A stretch of DNA of 64,000 bases from Candidatus Sulfuritelmatomonas gaucii (GTDB lineage Bacteria; Acidobacteriota; Terriglobia; Terriglobales; Acidobacteriaceae): NCBI GenBank assembly GCA_900290245.1, contig OKRB01000086.1, forward strand, positions 57,868 through 121,867, read 5' to 3'. The notes under the pieces were generated by a model. It searched no databases. It was not told where the DNA came from and saw only the letters and a program-made list of their open reading frames with translations. Made by a program: the position numbers and the translations under genes. This document shows positions 30,624-63,349 of the stretch, piece after piece. How positions within the stretch are numbered: position 1 is the stretch's first letter; each line of letters starts with the position of its first letter.

Positions 30624-32771
30624 ATGGCCAGAAGTCCAAAGAAAATCACGCTTTTCAACGGGCGGGACTACTCCTGGATGCAGTTCAATCGCCGTGTCCT
30701 GGAAGAGGCTGAAGACCCGGCGAACCCGCTGTTGGAGCGCGTGAAATTTCTGGCCATCACGGGCTCGAATCTTGACGAATACGTCGAAATCCGGCAGGCC
30801 GGCCTGATGCAGCGGATTGAGGACGGCTACCGCGAGCCGGGCTACGACGGCCAGCGCCCCGGCGAATCGCTTGGCACCCTCACCCACGAGATTCACAGCT
30901 TTGTGGCTGCGCAGTATCAATGCTGGAACATGCTGCTGCTGCCCGAGCTGTGCAAGCAGGGCATTCGGCTGCTGGAGTGGGATGAACTGGACGAAGACGC
31001 GCGCGATTTCGCCCGCGGTTACTTTCAGCGCGAGGTCGATCCGCTGCTGACTCCGATCTCGATCGATCCGGCCCATCCCTTTCCGCGCGTGCTCAACAAG
31101 GCGCTGTGCCTGGCGTTGTTGCTCCGCGCCAAGCGGCGCAGCTCTGGCCCGCACGTGCTCGGCGTGGTCACGGTGCCGCGCGCGCTGCCGCGATTTGTCC
31201 GCCTGCCCTCGAACCACGGCCGCCACGATTACCTGCTGCTGCAGGACCTGATCGCGCAGCAACTGGCCGGCATGTACCGGGGATACGAGGTGCTCGCCTC
31301 TGCGGCGTTCCGCGTGACGCGCAACTCAAACCTCTACTTCGAGGAGGAAGAGGCGCGGTCGCTGCTGGAGACGATCCGCGTGGAGCTGCACAACCGGCGC
31401 AAGGGCGATGCGGTGCGACTGGAGATTGAAACCGGCGCGGATCCCGAGATTGTGGAGCGCCTGCGCGTGAACTTCGAGCTTGAAGAGGACCAGGTGTTCC
31501 TTTGCGAAGGGCCGGTGAATCTCTCGCGCCTGATGTTCTTCTACAGCGATGTGCAGCGGCCCGATCTGAAATTCCTGCCGTTCACGCCGAAACCGCTGAT
31601 CCTGAGCCGCAAGTCAACGGGAATCTTCGATGAGCTTCGCCACCGCGATATTCTGCTGCACCACCCTTACGATGCTTACGACCCGGTGGTCGATTTCATC
31701 CAGCAGGGCGCGCAGGATCCGGCAGTGGTGACCATGAAGCAGACGCTCTACCGCACCAGCCACGACTCGCCGATGTTCCAGGCGCTGACCGAGGCGGGAG
31801 CAACCAAGGAAGCCACGGTGGTGGTGGAGTTGATGGCACGCTTCGACGAGGCTTCGAATATCCGCTGGGCGCGCAGCATGGAAGACGCGGGCGTGCAGGT
31901 GTTTCACGGCGTGGTGGGGCTGAAAACGCATTGCAAACTGGCCATGCTGGTGCGCCACGACGAGGACGGCGTCACTCGCCGCTACTGCCACCTGGGCACT
32001 GGCAATTACAACCCGGAGACTGCGCGCTTCTACACGGATTTGAGCCTGCTGACCAGCGACCCGCAGATTGGCGAACGCGTGCACATGGTGTTCAATTACC
32101 TGACCGCGCACGCGGAGCTTGATGACTACAGCCCGCTGCTGGTGGCGCCGCTGACGATGGCGGAGAGTTTTTTGCGGCTGATCCGGCGCGAGCAGGAGCA
32201 CGCGCAGGCCGGACGCCCGGCGCACATCGTGGCCAAGATGAATGCGCTGCTCGAGCCTTCGATTATCCAGGCGCTTTACCAGGCCTCGCAAGCCGGAGTT
32301 GAGATCGACCTGATCATCCGCGGCTTGTGCACGTTGCGGCCAGGCGTCAAAGGACTGTCGGACCGGATCCGCGTGCGCTCGATTGTGGGACGCTTTCTGG
32401 AGCACTCGCGCATCTTCCACTTTGCCAACGGGGGCAACGACGAAATCTACCTGGGCTCGGCCGACTGGATGCCGCGCAACCTCTTCGAACGGTGCGAAGT
32501 CGTCTTCCCCGTCCGCGACCCGGCGGTGATGGCCCGCATTCACGGCGAGATTCTGCCAGCTTATATGGCCGACAGCGTGAAAGCGCGCATCCAGCAGCCA
32601 GACGGCAGCTATGTTCGCGCGAACAAGCTGATGAAGGACACGCTGCTTTTTTCGAGCCAGGATTTCCTGATGTGCCTGGCCGAAGGGAAGGCGGATCTGG
32701 ATGCGATTCCCGCGCTGGATTCCAAGCGCGGACCAAAGGCTGCGCAACCGGCGGCGACGGCGGCGGACTAG
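30624..32771 (+). CDS. ppk: Polyphosphate kinase
   Basis: 715-residue PPK1, which reversibly polymerises the ATP gamma-phosphate into polyphosphate. It has the N-terminal helical domain (FNGRDYSWMQFNRRVLEEAEDP, ITGSNLDEYVEIR), the HPYDAYDPVVDFIQQ segment, and the phospho-histidine H436 in GLKTHCKLAML. The second PLD-like half has LEHSRIFHFANGG and SADWMPRNLFERCEVVFP. Length is typical of the family. The ATG at 30624 follows GAGAAGAAGA. ppx and sixA, also linked to phosphate metabolism, are 6-7 kb downstream. Confidence 0.96.
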   Translation: MARSPKKITLFNGRDYSWMQFNRRVLEEAEDPANPLLERVKFLAITGSNLDEYVEIRQAGLMQRIEDGYREPGYDGQRPGESLGTLTHEIHSFVAAQYQCWNMLLLPELCKQGIRLLEWDELDEDARDFARGYFQREVDPLLTPISIDPAHPFPRVLNKALCLALLLRAKRRSSGPHVLGVVTVPRALPRFVRLPSNHGRHDYLLLQDLIAQQLAGMYRGYEVLASAAFRVTRNSNLYFEEEEARSLLETIRVELHNRRKGDAVRLEIETGADPEIVERLRVNFELEEDQVFLCEGPVNLSRLMFFYSDVQRPDLKFLPFTPKPLILSRKSTGIFDELRHRDILLHHPYDAYDPVVDFIQQGAQDPAVVTMKQTLYRTSHDSPMFQALTEAGATKEATVVVELMARFDEASNIRWARSMEDAGVQVFHGVVGLKTHCKLAMLVRHDEDGVTRRYCHLGTGNYNPETARFYTDLSLLTSDPQIGERVHMVFNYLTAHAELDDYSPLLVAPLTMAESFLRLIRREQEHAQAGRPAHIVAKMNALLEPSIIQALYQASQAGVEIDLIIRGLCTLRPGVKGLSDRIRVRSIVGRFLEHSRIFHFANGGNDEIYLGSADWMPRNLFERCEVVFPVRDPAVMARIHGEILPAYMADSVKARIQQPDGSYVRANKLMKDTLLFSSQDFLMCLAEGKADLDAIPALDSKRGPKAAQPAATAAD

Positions 32772-33182: not shown

Positions 33183-34781
33183 TCAGGGAGCCGTTTCCAC
33201 CGGGCTCACGGTCACTCCGCTTTGCTTGAAGTCAAAGTGCAGGATCCAGACGCTGGCGACGGCCTGGCCCTCGACCTGGGCGGGTTTGAAGGTCCAATGC
33301 CGTGCGGCGTCGATGGCCTTGCCGCCGAAGTATTTGCTGGGTCCTGCGGATTCAAACCCGGCGTCAGTCACTCTGCCCGTGGCATCGACTGAAACGCGCA
33401 CTGCCACTTTCACGGTGCCCGAGATGGTTCGCAGGGCGCCGGCCAACACGTCCGGCTCAACCTGCTGCGCCACGGCACCTTTCGAAGCTCCGCTGCCTGA
33501 CGGCTGCGATGCTGCTGGCTGAGGTTGAGAGGGCGGCACAGTCGGCGTTGACGCTGCGGGTGCGGCAGTAGCTGACGATTGCGACGGCGGTGCTATCGAC
33601 GCGGCGGCTGAATCCTGCGATGCCGGGACGGGCGCAGGTACCGCAGCCGAAGCAGCGGACTGATCCCGCTTTGATGTCTCGGCGGAAGATTGCGGGGGAG
33701 CCGCTTGTGGAGCGGGAGCCGCGGCCTGCGATGTGGGCAAAGCATTCTGAGCTTGCGGCGCAGGCTGCGACGGTGGCTTGTGGTTCGAGCGGATTGCCCA
33801 CACGACCAATGTCAGAATCAGGAGGGTCACAACGGCCGTCGAAACCACCACGCGACGCCTGGGAGCAGCCAGTGCAGCGGCGATGGCGGGCTTCAGTGCG
33901 GCGGCGATAGCGGGCTTCACCGACGCGAGGGGAGGGCTGGCGGGCTCGGCGGGTTCTTCGGGCCTGGTTTTGAATTCGAGGACCGCTTTCTTCTTCACGG
34001 GCGGAAGAACTGCGCCGGGGTCCAGCCGCATTCTGATCTGGTCAAGAGTGCAGCGCCGCGCGGGATCTTTGCGGAGACATTCTTGCGCGACGGTCGCAAA
34101 GGGTTCGGGGACAGAATCAGACACGGCAGGTTCAGCCGCTGCCGCTCCGTACCATGCGGGCGGGCGCTGCGTGAGAATCTCAACCAACGTGGCGCCGAGC
34201 GCCCACACGTCGGCCGATGTGCCGATGCGTCCCTGGATCGTCTCCGGCGCATCGTAGATGGTTCGCTCGATGGAGGGCTTGCCGATTGCGCCCGCGAGAA
34301 TCAGACCGTCTGCGGAGAGCTTTAACCGGTCGCCGACAGCCATGATGTTTGAAGGTTTGAGGCGGCCGTGGACAAAGCCCTTGGCGTGGAGATATGCGAG
34401 GGCATCCACCGCAGGGCCGAGCATTTCTCTCGCCTCCTCGGGAGTCAAAGCGCGTTCCGGAATAATCTCGGCGAGGACTTCGTCGGCGTACTCGGTGACA
34501 ACGTAGAGCATGGGCGAGGAGTCGATCTCGCAACGCCCGCTGGCAAATACCTTGATGAGATGGGGATGGGAGAGGTTCGCGGCAGCCAGCCAGCCTGACA
34601 TGCGTGTTTCCGCGTCGCCCGAGCTGGCGGGAACGAGCTTGACGGTGGCTTTTTGCGATGGATCGCCGAATTCGGTCAGGTAGGTTTCCACCCCGCGGGA
34701 GCTGCTCAGCCATCGGAGAAGGGTGAATCGGCCGCTGACGACACGTCCGACAAAATCACCGTGAATTGCTGTTGCGCTCAT
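33183..34781 (-). CDS. Pseudokinase-TM-TonB C-terminal fusion protein
   Basis: 532 residues. Residues ~10-255 have a protein-kinase fold (VSGRFTLLRWL, ATVKLV with Lys48, HPHLIKVFASG, TIYDAPE, SADVWALGATLVEILTQRPP). The Gly-rich loop is lost, HRDLKPSN reads HGRLKPSN (138-145) and DFG reads ADG (157-159), so both catalytic Asp residues are missing. A transmembrane helix (~311-330) follows, then a ~100-residue Pro/Ala/Ser linker and a TonB_C domain (VRVSVDATGRVTDAGFESAG, AIDAARHWTFKPAQVEGQAV). A cytoplasmic pseudokinase is thus joined to a periplasmic TonB-like domain. The ATG at 34781 was chosen over an upstream TTG. Confidence 0.87.
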   Translation of the reverse strand: MSATAIHGDFVGRVVSGRFTLLRWLSSSRGVETYLTEFGDPSQKATVKLVPASSGDAETRMSGWLAAANLSHPHLIKVFASGRCEIDSSPMLYVVTEYADEVLAEIIPERALTPEEAREMLGPAVDALAYLHAKGFVHGRLKPSNIMAVGDRLKLSADGLILAGAIGKPSIERTIYDAPETIQGRIGTSADVWALGATLVEILTQRPPAWYGAAAAEPAVSDSVPEPFATVAQECLRKDPARRCTLDQIRMRLDPGAVLPPVKKKAVLEFKTRPEEPAEPASPPLASVKPAIAAALKPAIAAALAAPRRRVVVSTAVVTLLILTLVVWAIRSNHKPPSQPAPQAQNALPTSQAAAPAPQAAPPQSSAETSKRDQSAASAAVPAPVPASQDSAAASIAPPSQSSATAAPAASTPTVPPSQPQPAASQPSGSGASKGAVAQQVEPDVLAGALRTISGTVKVAVRVSVDATGRVTDAGFESAGPSKYFGGKAIDAARHWTFKPAQVEGQAVASVWILHFDFKQSGVTVSPVETAP

Positions 34782-35000: not shown

Positions 35001-35966
35001 TTAGCGCCAGTCACCCAGCACATAGTTGCCGGGCCGGTTGAAGCCCTCGCCGCGCGGACGCTGCATGGCGATACCCAGAGCGGTCATGCGATAGCCGCGT
35101 GAGCGCATGCGGTGGAACGGATCGTCGCAGGCGAGACTCACACCGGCTTCCAGTTCGGCTCCCCGCGCCAAGGCAAGCGCTTCAATGGCGTCGAGGAGGC
35201 GATCAAATCTCTCTCCGCTGCCCGGGCCGCCGCGCGCCGCAGCGAATTTGACGTAGCAGGTGTTTGCGCCACCCTCAGATCCGGGGCCGTTCATGCAGAC
35301 GGCGAAGGCGTCGAGCGATCGTTGACCATAAACCAGCGGCACCTCGCCGATGCGCTGCTTGAGGACGGCGCGGATCTCCTCGCCTAGATCGAGGCCTTTC
35401 TCCATGCTGCTTGTGAGCTTCGCGCAGGCGCCAATCGCCTGCGATTTTTCGCGGTCACTGAGCGCCGAGAGCAACACCGGCACCTTGACACCGCTTTTCA
35501 ATGTCCACGCAGGAGGCTGCGGCGTGCGTTTCATGAGCGCGGTAAGAGAGCCGGGCCAATAGCCAAATTTCTGATACAGGCCGACGTGCTTGGGACTGCT
35601 CGCAAATGTGAATAGCCCGCTGTGCCGCACGCGCCATCGGCTGAAAACCTTCATGGTGGCTGAGAGCAACTGCTGGGCGACGCCGCGGCTCCAGCAATCG
35701 GGCGAAACGGTGAGCGGACCGAAGAAACCAAAGGATCCCCACCGCGTGATGGCGTTCGATCCGAGGAGCCTGCCGTCTTCGCGCGCCGCCAGCACGACGG
35801 TGTTGCGCGAGCGCCAGCGTGGCGTGAGGAAGTCGCGGTCGCCCATGAATTCCAGCGGATTGGGGAGACCCAGGAACGTACCGAATGCCATCCGGACAAT
35901 GCGGCCTGCTTCTTCAAGCTCGTTCTCACGAAGCGGACCGATCTGAATCGACGGATTTCTAGCCAT
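35001..35966 (-). CDS. GNAT-family acetyltransferase, large form
   Basis: 321 residues. An N-terminal GNAT domain (residues ~8-150) has GSNAITRWGSFGFFGPLTVSP and SRGVAQQLLSATMKVF (acetyl-CoA loop), then FTFASSPKHVGLYQKFGYWPG. The C-terminal half contains a second GNAT-like unit (DAFAVCMNGPGSEGG, CYVKFAAARGG, LACDDPFHRMRSRGYRMTALGIAMQRP). The substrate is unknown. The ATG at 35966 has AAGAAG upstream. The 207-bp spacer 34794-35000 downstream of it shows nothing notable. Confidence 0.75.
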   Translation of the reverse strand: MARNPSIQIGPLRENELEEAGRIVRMAFGTFLGLPNPLEFMGDRDFLTPRWRSRNTVVLAAREDGRLLGSNAITRWGSFGFFGPLTVSPDCWSRGVAQQLLSATMKVFSRWRVRHSGLFTFASSPKHVGLYQKFGYWPGSLTALMKRTPQPPAWTLKSGVKVPVLLSALSDREKSQAIGACAKLTSSMEKGLDLGEEIRAVLKQRIGEVPLVYGQRSLDAFAVCMNGPGSEGGANTCYVKFAAARGGPGSGERFDRLLDAIEALALARGAELEAGVSLACDDPFHRMRSRGYRMTALGIAMQRPRGEGFNRPGNYVLGDWR

Positions 35967-36138
35967 GGTCTTCTTGCACCTTTGGTTGAGATCGTGCGGC
36001 GCTGGGGCGGGGCTCCGGGATGCGGCCGCGGGCGCGCCCAGTGTAACGCATCGCAAAGTGAACCACCATCTGTTCAAGCAAGGCGGTTACTGAGAGCGAT
36101 AAAATTTCTGCGGATCACTGCTCGCGAGGGAGAGTCTT

Positions 36139-37776
36139 ATGCGGAAGCACTGGGTAAAGATCGTGATTGCCGTCGTGGCACTGCTCGTCATCGTGTTCGG
36201 GCTGGTCCCTTTCTTCATCAACGCCGACACCTTCCGGCCGGCCATCGAGAGCCAATTGTCCAGCGCACTCAACAGGAAAGTCACGCTCGGGCATCTGAGT
36301 CTTTCCCTCATCAGCGGCAGCCTGGTGGCGGAAAACATCTCGATTGCGGATGATCCGTCGCTTTCTTCAACTCCATTTCTTGAGGCGAAAAAGCTCGACC
36401 TCGGCATTGAATTGGGACAATTCCTCTTTCATCACTCGGTGCAGATCACGAAGCTCACCATCGATACGCCGGCAATTGATTTGATCCACCTCGAAAATGG
36501 CACCTGGAACTTCTCCAGCATGGGGAATTCAGGCGGTCAGCCGTCGTCCGCAACCAGCAGCATGCCTGCCCTTTCGGTGGATGAACTGAAGATCAAGGAT
36601 GGAAGCGCAACGGTCGCTTCGGTCCCTGCGGCCGGCAATCCATTCACATGCAGCGCAATCAACCTCGACGTGAAGCATTTCTCGTTTACGAACGCATTTC
36701 CTTTCGATCTTTCGGTCAAGCTGCCTGGAGATGGAACCGTGAAACTGAGCGGGACGGCAGGGCCCATTGCGCAGCAAGACGCTTCGAAAACGCCCTTTCA
36801 GGCGACGCTCGAGATCAAGCATTTTGATCCGGTCGCAGCCAATGCGGTTCAGGCCAGCGATGGAATTGCCATGGTCGCGGACCTGGACGCGAAGATCGCG
36901 TCAGACGGCGGAAACCTGTCGAGCACGGGAAAGATCACGGCATCGCAATTGAAGCTGGCGCGTAACGGATCCCCCGCTCCGCAGCCGGTGGACATCGACT
37001 TCGCAATCTCCGACAACCTCGACACGCGCGCGGGAAAGGTATCGGACCTGGCAATTCACTCGGGCACGGCCGCCGTCCAGATCAACGGAAGCTACCAGGC
37101 GGCCATGGGGGGCGTCACGCTGAACCTGCGACTGTCGGCGCCCAATCTAGCGATTGATCAAATAGAGCAGTTGCTGCCGGCCGCGGGCATCAATCTGCCA
37201 AGCGGCTCCAAACTGAAAGGCGGCTCGCTCACGGCAAACCTCACCATCACGGGTCCGGCAAGCGCAATGACGATTGCCGGACCGGTCGAGGTCGACAACA
37301 CGCAACTTGCGGGCTTCGACCTCGGATCGAAAATCCAAGGCTTGAATCCGCTGGGAGGAACAGGCGGCGGCACGCAAATCGAGAAGGTGAGCACGGACGT
37401 GAACTCTTCGCCGCAGATGACCAGCTTTAACAACATCGTTGCGTCTGTTCCGGCCATCGGGACTGCAACCGGAAGCGGCACCATTTCTCCCTCAGAGGCG
37501 CTGAACTTTCAACTGGTCGCCAAGTTCAACAATGCATCCGCGTTGGGGTCGGCTGCCAACGCGGGGTTGAACACCGTTGCCAGCCTGCTCGGCAATCGCT
37601 CCAATACCGCGGCAAACAGCGGCATTCCGCTGACGGTCACAGGGAAAGCGTCGAGTCCGTCAATCCGCGCGAACATCGGAGCCATGGTGAAGCAACAGGC
37701 GGGCGGATTGTTTGGAAGCTCCGACGGAAAGCAAAACAACACGGTCAACAAGCTGAAGGGGCTGTTGGGGAAGTGA
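36139..37776 (+). CDS. AsmA-family inner-membrane-anchored protein
   Basis: 545 residues. One N-terminal transmembrane helix (VKIVIAVVALLVIVFGLVPFFI) is followed directly by the AsmA_N signature NADTFRPAIESQLSSALNRKVTLGHLSLSLISGSLVAENISIADDP. Long beta-rich periplasmic regions follow, then a C-terminal AsmA_2-like part (GGVTLNLRLSAPNLAIDQIEQLLPAAGI, GSLTANLTITGPASAMTIAGPVEV). AsmA proteins are thought to move phospholipids between membranes as bridge-like tubes. It is divergent from the GNAT gene and appears to be a single-gene transcript. Confidence 0.87.
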   Translation: MRKHWVKIVIAVVALLVIVFGLVPFFINADTFRPAIESQLSSALNRKVTLGHLSLSLISGSLVAENISIADDPSLSSTPFLEAKKLDLGIELGQFLFHHSVQITKLTIDTPAIDLIHLENGTWNFSSMGNSGGQPSSATSSMPALSVDELKIKDGSATVASVPAAGNPFTCSAINLDVKHFSFTNAFPFDLSVKLPGDGTVKLSGTAGPIAQQDASKTPFQATLEIKHFDPVAANAVQASDGIAMVADLDAKIASDGGNLSSTGKITASQLKLARNGSPAPQPVDIDFAISDNLDTRAGKVSDLAIHSGTAAVQINGSYQAAMGGVTLNLRLSAPNLAIDQIEQLLPAAGINLPSGSKLKGGSLTANLTITGPASAMTIAGPVEVDNTQLAGFDLGSKIQGLNPLGGTGGGTQIEKVSTDVNSSPQMTSFNNIVASVPAIGTATGSGTISPSEALNFQLVAKFNNASALGSAANAGLNTVASLLGNRSNTAANSGIPLTVTGKASSPSIRANIGAMVKQQAGGLFGSSDGKQNNTVNKLKGLLGK

Positions 37777-62848: not shown

Positions 62849-63349
62849 CTATCGCCAGCCACACCTCCACAAATAGAGACATTTCGCAGCGCGAACCCGC
62901 GTCGCAACTGGGTCGCAAGTTCCGGAAGGTTGGCCGGTGAACGTAACAATTCCACTTGCCTCGGAGACTCTTGGGTAGGACTTGTCAGGCGCGTCGCAAA
63001 AATACCCGCCGATGAGTTCATAGCTGAAAGAGAGTTTGAATTGTCTGGCACCAGGCGTGCAGCCGTTGCACTCGAATTGCATCTGACGAGCACTCTCGAT
63101 TGCAGCCGATCTGAGCATTGCTGGGCCGCCGACGACTTCCACAGATTCAACGGTGCCGTCCGACCCTAGCTTAATACTCAATTCAACACGCCCGGAGACG
63201 CGCGCCGCCAAAGCGATCGGGGGGTAAGAGGCCGATGGCAACTTGATGATCTTTGGAGTGCTTTCAGGCACGGCTGCTGGCGGAGGACCTTTAGCAAGTG
63301 CCGGAGACAAAAGCTCGACCGATAACAGACAGGTCACAAGCTTTTTCAT
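62849..63349 (-). CDS. Small exported TonB C-terminal domain protein
   Basis: 166 residues with a signal peptide (KKLVTCLLSVELLSPALA). A Pro-rich stretch (GPPPAAVPESTPK) and a TonB_C domain follow: KLPSASYPPIALAARVSGRVELSIKLGSDGTVESVEVVGG, then AIESARQMQFECNGCTPG. There is no transmembrane anchor besides the signal peptide and no ExbB/ExbD nearby, so it is unlikely to be a classical energy transducer. The C-terminal ~45 residues (YFCDAPDKSYPR onward) are Cys-containing and unlike other TonB_C ends. A second TonB_C domain in this window is fused to the pseudokinase. Confidence 0.75.
   Translation of the reverse strand: MKKLVTCLLSVELLSPALAKGPPPAAVPESTPKIIKLPSASYPPIALAARVSGRVELSIKLGSDGTVESVEVVGGPAMLRSAAIESARQMQFECNGCTPGARQFKLSFSYELIGGYFCDAPDKSYPRVSEASGIVTFTGQPSGTCDPVATRVRAAKCLYLWRCGWR

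Follow-up and report, generated by a model that had tools for sequence, protein, structure and literature searches.

The gene described here belongs to a conserved family of Terriglobia proteins, which we regard on balance as single-pass receptor pseudokinases with wall or envelope contact outside, a scaffold in the cytoplasm and a lock between residues D158 and Lys48. Sequence comparison and structure models together show a kinase fold without catalytic aspartates, one transmembrane helix with the kinase part predicted inside, then a linker of low complexity and, at the C-terminus, either a dedicated subtype of TonB_C or, in sister proteins, a SPOR domain.

The whole gene lies on the minus strand at 33183..34781 of the window, by which we mean the complete 64-kb stretch of DNA that was analyzed, and it codes for 532 amino acids. 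The start codon is the ATG at 34781; a TTG is found four codons upstream. All parts named in the following are on the same strand. The kinase-fold domain comprises residues 12–256 (34014..34748), as delimited by the AF2 model and the range of the VIA-align superposition. It is followed by a transmembrane helix (residues 311–330, 33792..33851; mean hydropathy of 2.59 for the best 19 residues), by a linker of 101 residues which was recognized by its length and its richness in Ala, Pro, Ser and Gln (residues 331–431, 33489..33791) and finally by the TonB_C-fold periplasmic domain (residues 432–532, 33186..33488). Pfam detects Pkinase (PF00069) with 77.5 bits at a cut-off of 31.7 and TonB_C (PF03544) with 28.3 bits at a cut-off of 24.6. 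Since the motif RRR precedes the transmembrane stretch, the kinase part is predicted to be cytoplasmic. A first-pass annotation of this DNA had proposed a pseudokinase joined via a transmembrane helix to a periplasmic TonB_C domain, and this layout is borne out by Pfam, by AF2 and by the relatives. We collected 85 open reading frames from fetched loci, which together with the window protein gave 74 nonredundant members, and in 71 of these both the transmembrane helix and TonB_C are present; the architecture is therefore not a product of chance. The exceptions are a copy broken by a stop codon (L053), a protein which ends past the kinase part (L063) and a protein with a SPOR domain (L206).

Structure prediction supports the fold assignment of both domains. 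For residues 1–265 the AF2 model, which was built from alignments of the window protein and related loci, is a kinase fold with a mean pLDDT of 92.0. The neighbors found by Foldseek in the PDB are kinases with PknB at rank 1, and VIA-align superimposes the kinase part on PknB (1mru_B) with a Z score of 25.0 and an rmsd of 2.5 over 243 residues. Among the 50 matches listed, the Z scores range from 24.8 to 26.3, as befits a bilobal kinase fold. The last 105 residues are modeled with a mean pLDDT of 94.3, and the ten best Foldseek matches of the TonB_C part are all TonB-type C-terminal domains, the best with E = 0.0014 and none under 0.001. Pfam, AF2 and Foldseek thus agree on a TonB_C fold.

The catalytic residues are lost as the first-pass annotation had read them. 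Where the kinases of the same genome have their Gly-rich loop, residues 26–34 of the window copy (34680..34706) are degenerate (LSSSRGVETY). HGR replaces HRD at residues 138–140 (34362..34370) and ADG replaces DFG at residues 157–159 (34305..34313), so that both aspartates of a canonical Ser/Thr protein kinase are missing, and Lys48 of strand beta3 is retained (34638..34640), as is Asn145 of the catalytic loop (34347..34349). The column of the HRD Asp contains Arg in 35, His in 31 and Asp in only two of the 74 members (missing in 72/74), and no member has Asp in the column of the DFG Asp. When sister groups are added to give 100 rows, the HRD Asp is found twice, the DFG Asp (residue 157) not at all and the alphaC Glu twice; the 16 aligned canonical kinases have each of the three in 16 of 16 cases. 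The HRD Asp is hence replaced in 98 rows, in 88 of them by His or Arg, and the only two rows which have it (L176 and L177) are sisters in the tree. Judged by these residues, the window protein is a bacterial pseudokinase of the Ser/Thr kinase type, and the classification holds for the family. The remaining residues of the site are kept to a different degree: position 48 is Lys in 70 of the 74 members (K 86 and R 9 among the 100 rows), and position 145 is Asn in 67 of the 74 (88/100). The first glycine of the Gly-rich loop, G26, is present in 69 of 74 members, with mostly Ser or Thr in place of the second, and it is gone from the window copy and from every one of the 12 SPOR-group rows.

An alternative Asp at a catalytic position, named in the first-pass annotation as an observation that would speak against a pseudokinase, exists only in a displaced form. 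One column past the DFG Asp, 71 of the 74 members have Asp and 95 of the 100 rows retain D158, but the residue appears to sit at the Phe column of DFG, and the HRD Asp is replaced as described. This placement derives from the alignment and the model, in which strand beta8 comprises residues 152–155 (DSSP limits) and the beta8 Lys aligns with a canonical Lys in three of six kinases of the genome, set against the usual beta8 limits of reference kinases. The distance from Asn145 to D158 is 13 residues, which is also the distance from Asn to the DFG Asp in four of the six aligned kinases of the genome (the remaining two have 16 and 18). According to the alignment, the spacing of 13 comes about because the beta7–beta8 turn is shorter by one residue and an extra residue precedes the Asp.

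With the alphaC Glu lost, a bond between D158 and Lys48 is the simplest reading, and we infer that D158 may pair with Lys48 in lieu of this Glu. In favor of the pairing, five rows have no basic residue at position 48, and three of them have no acidic residue at position 158 either, compared with one of the 95 others (Fisher p = 0.00024, kinship ignored). On independent pairs, one to two agree and none disagrees, which with so few pairs is not significant. In the SPOR group Lys48 has changed to Arg in seven of 12 rows, D158 is kept in ten and none of the 12 retains Lys142.

Kinase folds such as SelO and SidJ carry out other chemistry, and the window protein could be a nucleotide sensor or an atypical enzyme which binds ATP via Lys48, Asn145 and D158 and either switches its shape or catalyzes a different reaction. 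The conservation of Lys48, Asn145 and G26 in most members would suit this explanation, and so would the distance of D158 from Asn145. Moreover, the DYD pseudokinases lack the alphaC Glu, their Asp is described to pair with the basic residue of beta3, and they have been modeled with ATP (PMC12599244). Against it stand the His or Arg at the place of the catalytic base in 88 of 100 rows, the complete loss of the Gly-rich loop in the window copy and the SPOR group, whose substitutions indicate that the ATP contacts were not kept and the charged pair mostly was. We therefore consider nucleotide sensing or atypical catalysis unlikely. A binding role of the kinase fold is likely.

The family is widespread in the class. 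Among 299 Terriglobia genomes drawn, 67 match the family profile (built on 23 rows; E = 1e-40 or better), and they come from the four families f1, f5, f6 and f7. In a set of 60 relatives, the own genome counted, 22 have a match to the kinase part of at least 229 bits. A draw from the whole phylum gave three matches in 247 genomes, the own genome among them and all in the window's own family, yet this is weak evidence of absence since no match from f7 was recovered, a family in which the class draw had found many members. Among the taxa represented are Acidobacteriaceae, Candidatus Sulfotelmatobacter, Silvibacterium and metagenome-assembled genomes of Candidatus Acidiferrales. Close relatives were not detected by a pattern search of the genome contigs with the single protein. 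Among the best 80 of 493 candidates from the alignment query, 12 belong to the pseudokinase family; the other 68 are, with the exception of L159, loci with a canonical HRD...DFG frame (67 loci). In a tree of 116 rows, calculated by a quick method, a branch with an SH-aLRT support of 100 separates all 100 pseudokinases from the 16 canonical kinases. Because the canonical set comprises these 16 kinases only, a nearer canonical relative may exist.

In ten pairs (nine of the TonB_C and one of the SPOR type) dN/dS according to Nei–Gojobori is 0.031–0.287 for the kinase part and 0.056–0.290 for the last 100 residues. The pseudokinase gene is no relic. This also bears on the idea that two genes were fused by decay or misassembly, for which the single relative broken by a stop codon could be quoted. 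Since 71 of the 74 members share one architecture, four families of the class are represented and all ratios are below 0.3, we regard this idea as refuted and leave it next to no probability. In the broken copy (L053, G016:C10) the stop is located between the transmembrane helix and TonB_C, and the same genome has an intact copy (L037).

The periplasmic domain is not an ordinary TonB_C domain. A profile made from the family's own TonB_C domains scores 83.2–151.5 bits at 23 places in 41 genomes, all of them family loci (one, G012:C216, is a fragment at a contig end), and at most 36.5 bits outside of the family loci. The profile gives at least 78.9 bits in all 76 members, including those in which Pfam TonB_C stays below its cut-off (L064, L203, L205, L212 and L213). 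Judging by these scores, the subtype is confined to the pseudokinase family in the 41 genomes. Near-invariant in the 76 members are Y484 (70), F485 (73) and W512 (74), and different residues occupy these columns in the six TonB_C proteins which the genome encodes besides. Aromatic residues often mark sugar binding, so that the three positions can serve as a lead to a sugar ligand, and as a lead only. At L203 (6649–8844, minus strand), the same frame has an N-terminal stretch which by its sequence resembles a receiver domain; Pfam at E = 0.05 names no domain there.

The first-pass annotation had further suggested a TonB-like periplasmic contact which is controlled by the pseudokinase. In its full form this would be a transducer whose TonB_C domain touches TonB-dependent receptors or ExbBD and is gated from the cytoplasm. 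The fold argues for such a transducer, the linker of 101 residues in the window protein could by our estimate span the periplasm, and the genome has ExbD and further TonB_C genes. A small TonB_C protein of 166 amino acids without kinase part (62849–63349, minus strand; 40.9 bits) is encoded within the window. The YP motif is a feature of the TonB C-terminal domain, and it is absent from all 76 members, though of the genome's six remaining TonB_C proteins three lack it as well and three have it. In TonB the N-terminal signal anchor carries a His which contacts ExbB. No His occurs in the predicted transmembrane stretch of any of the 74 rows (L063 has no such stretch), and in the window protein the helix begins only after 310 residues, unlike the N-terminal anchor of TonB. 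The linkers of the family measure 30–121 residues with a median of 71 (n = 71), and a quarter of these 71 members have at most 46 residues, which is too short to reach the outer membrane if we estimate about 3.3 Å per residue. Finally, a SPOR domain can substitute for TonB_C in relatives. There are four ExbD matches in the genome and none within the window, so that the statement of the first-pass annotation that ExbB and ExbD are not nearby stands for ExbD. The similarity to TonB is supported for the fold and weakly supported for the contact; we hold a TonB-like transducer to be quite unlikely, though less so for the window copy with its long linker, and prefer a receptor for the wall or the envelope. 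For such a receptor it is at least as likely that the periplasmic domain steers the cytoplasmic domain as the reverse.

The exchange of the outer domain is seen in 11 readable sister proteins (L067–L070, L206–L211 and L214) which have SPOR in the place of TonB_C. Nine of them score at or over the 21-bit cut-off of Pfam SPOR, and L070 and L214 score below. Together with L066, whose C-terminus is unreadable and which was counted by kinship, they make up 12 rows. Ten of these form one group with a support of 87, and L206 and L211 are placed elsewhere with weak support. As the SPOR rows are mostly on a single branch, the exchange may have been one event; the root inside the pseudokinase clade is not known and hence neither SPOR nor TonB_C can be named ancestral. 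Two genomes (G016 and G020) have both types. By these comparisons the periplasmic domain of the family seems to be exchangeable. SPOR domains are reported to recognize peptidoglycan stripped of its stem peptides (PMC6895207). A third group of the pseudokinase clade (L215, L217 and L219–L222) has instead, after the kinase part, a cysteine-containing stretch which by its sequence looks like a ribbon of the type CxxCG...Y. In L219–L222 a helix of hydrophobic residues comes further on, with a small region behind it at the C-terminus, and L222 is a tandem pair of kinase copies.

The gene neighborhood was compared all-against-all with open reading frames of at least 90 amino acids around the 74 loci. 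A conserved operon partner can be rejected, as no neighbor is shared family-wide. The largest cluster (18 loci) consists of response regulator and histidine kinase frames, identified by eye and found at scattered distances. The set most consistent in position comprises eight loci (L089, L092, L093, L095, L097, L170, L180 and L182) with a convergent frame which is presumably a TrmH-like methyltransferase; in five of the eight a response regulator frame is located about 2 kb further. A polyphosphate kinase is near the pseudokinase gene in five loci including the window, where it is found at 30624–32771 (plus strand). The TrmH-like and polyphosphate kinase neighbors look like local synteny among near relatives. 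Further neighbors in the window are a GNAT acetyltransferase (35001–36077, minus strand) and an AsmA-like protein (36139–37776, plus strand). Elsewhere, at G000:C158:256188-258430, the frame of a Ser/Thr kinase (863 amino acids) is near a TonB_C frame of 524 amino acids with a transmembrane helix assigned by eye.

The lack of a conserved partner gene nearby would fit a passive anchor, i.e. a protein which tethers the inner membrane to the wall without signaling and whose kinase fold serves as no more than a stable plug on the cytoplasmic side, and the envelope-binding nature of SPOR would fit it as well. The invariant and near-invariant residues, however, are spread through the whole kinase fold in 23 aligned members and speak for a specific cytoplasmic surface. 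The kinase part and the last 100 residues resemble each other in dN/dS, which also argues against a mere plug, although upkeep of the fold alone would likewise cause selection. In our opinion a purely passive anchor is very unlikely.

We suggest that the wall- or envelope-contact receptor works as follows. The periplasmic domain would bind the cell wall or another fixed ligand of the envelope; for TonB_C, wall binding is a suggestion against which it can be held that according to PMC10771500 the contact to peptidoglycan is made by ExbD. This binding could place or cluster the receptor in the inner membrane. Such a protein would sense or mark the envelope, and would be neither an enzyme nor a motor of iron uptake. 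The pseudokinase domain would act as a docking or allosteric scaffold in the cytoplasm, most likely for one of the active Ser/Thr kinases or their substrates, and the pairing of D158 and Lys48 could lock the N-lobe as has been proposed for the DYD pseudokinases (PMC12599244). Wall binding, if true, would mean that this subtype of TonB_C has turned into a domain for binding glycan or wall, and that TonB_C folds have uses other than force transduction. A single kinase chassis with two kinds of envelope domains further offers a direct route to the role of the dead kinase and to the ligand outside.

Among known systems, the PASTA kinases PknB and PrkC are close in plan. In these a kinase is joined via a transmembrane helix to extracytoplasmic repeats which bind the wall (PMC3989709), and the window protein has the same order of kinase fold, membrane helix and outer domain. 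PknB is also among its best matches in sequence and fold. The window protein differs in that the catalytic Asp are missing and TonB_C or SPOR stands outside; a Pfam scan with E up to 1 finds no PASTA domain in it. Six PASTA matches exist in the own genome, in frames of 271, 2822 and 777 amino acids, and none coincides in position with any of the seven kinase hits. A protein built on the plan of a PASTA kinase, but with a dead kinase inside and either SPOR or a special TonB_C in the periplasm, is best read as a receptor for wall or envelope contact with a scaffold as its cytoplasmic part. More tentatively, and with less confidence than we place in the receptor itself, the TonB_C subtype and SPOR could be exchangeable wall-reading modules on one pseudokinase chassis throughout Terriglobia, a non-catalytic counterpart of the PASTA kinases which would report the state of the wall to the cytoplasm.

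TonB and HasB share with the window protein the TonB_C fold and a low-complexity linker, but the window protein has neither YP nor the transmembrane His and carries a kinase-fold part of 310 residues before the membrane helix. In mycobacteria the pseudokinase MviN is tied to wall synthesis according to PMC3989709; by its description it resembles our protein as a bacterial pseudokinase with a link to the wall. EssB/YukC, likewise compared by description, is a transmembrane pseudokinase with degraded motifs (PMC12599244); unlike the window protein it is a secretion component of Firmicutes.

Bacterial pseudokinases are described as largely unexplored by experiment in PMC12599244, which presents the seven families ActPs1-3, GLW, CP1, DYD and DLHK. 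These and the window family are all bacterial pseudokinases with a Ser/Thr kinase fold, and GLW and DYD are membrane-associated. As far as the motif descriptions of GLW and DYD allow the distinction, the window protein belongs to neither: DYD has DYD for DFG and an Arg in beta3 and GLW has GLW for HRD and a bulky residue for the beta3 Lys, whereas the window protein has ADG, HGR and Lys48. Members of DLHK are stated to be without transmembrane regions, and the window protein has one. The main text of PMC12599244 names neither TonB nor Acidobacter, and passages of PMC12204202 on the evolution of TonB and TolA do not mention the word kinase. Among titles and beginnings of abstracts of the open-licence literature we found no pseudokinase with TonB_C or SPOR. 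We file the proteins as a new family of bacterial membrane pseudokinases, which are a known kind of protein, with an unusual outer part.
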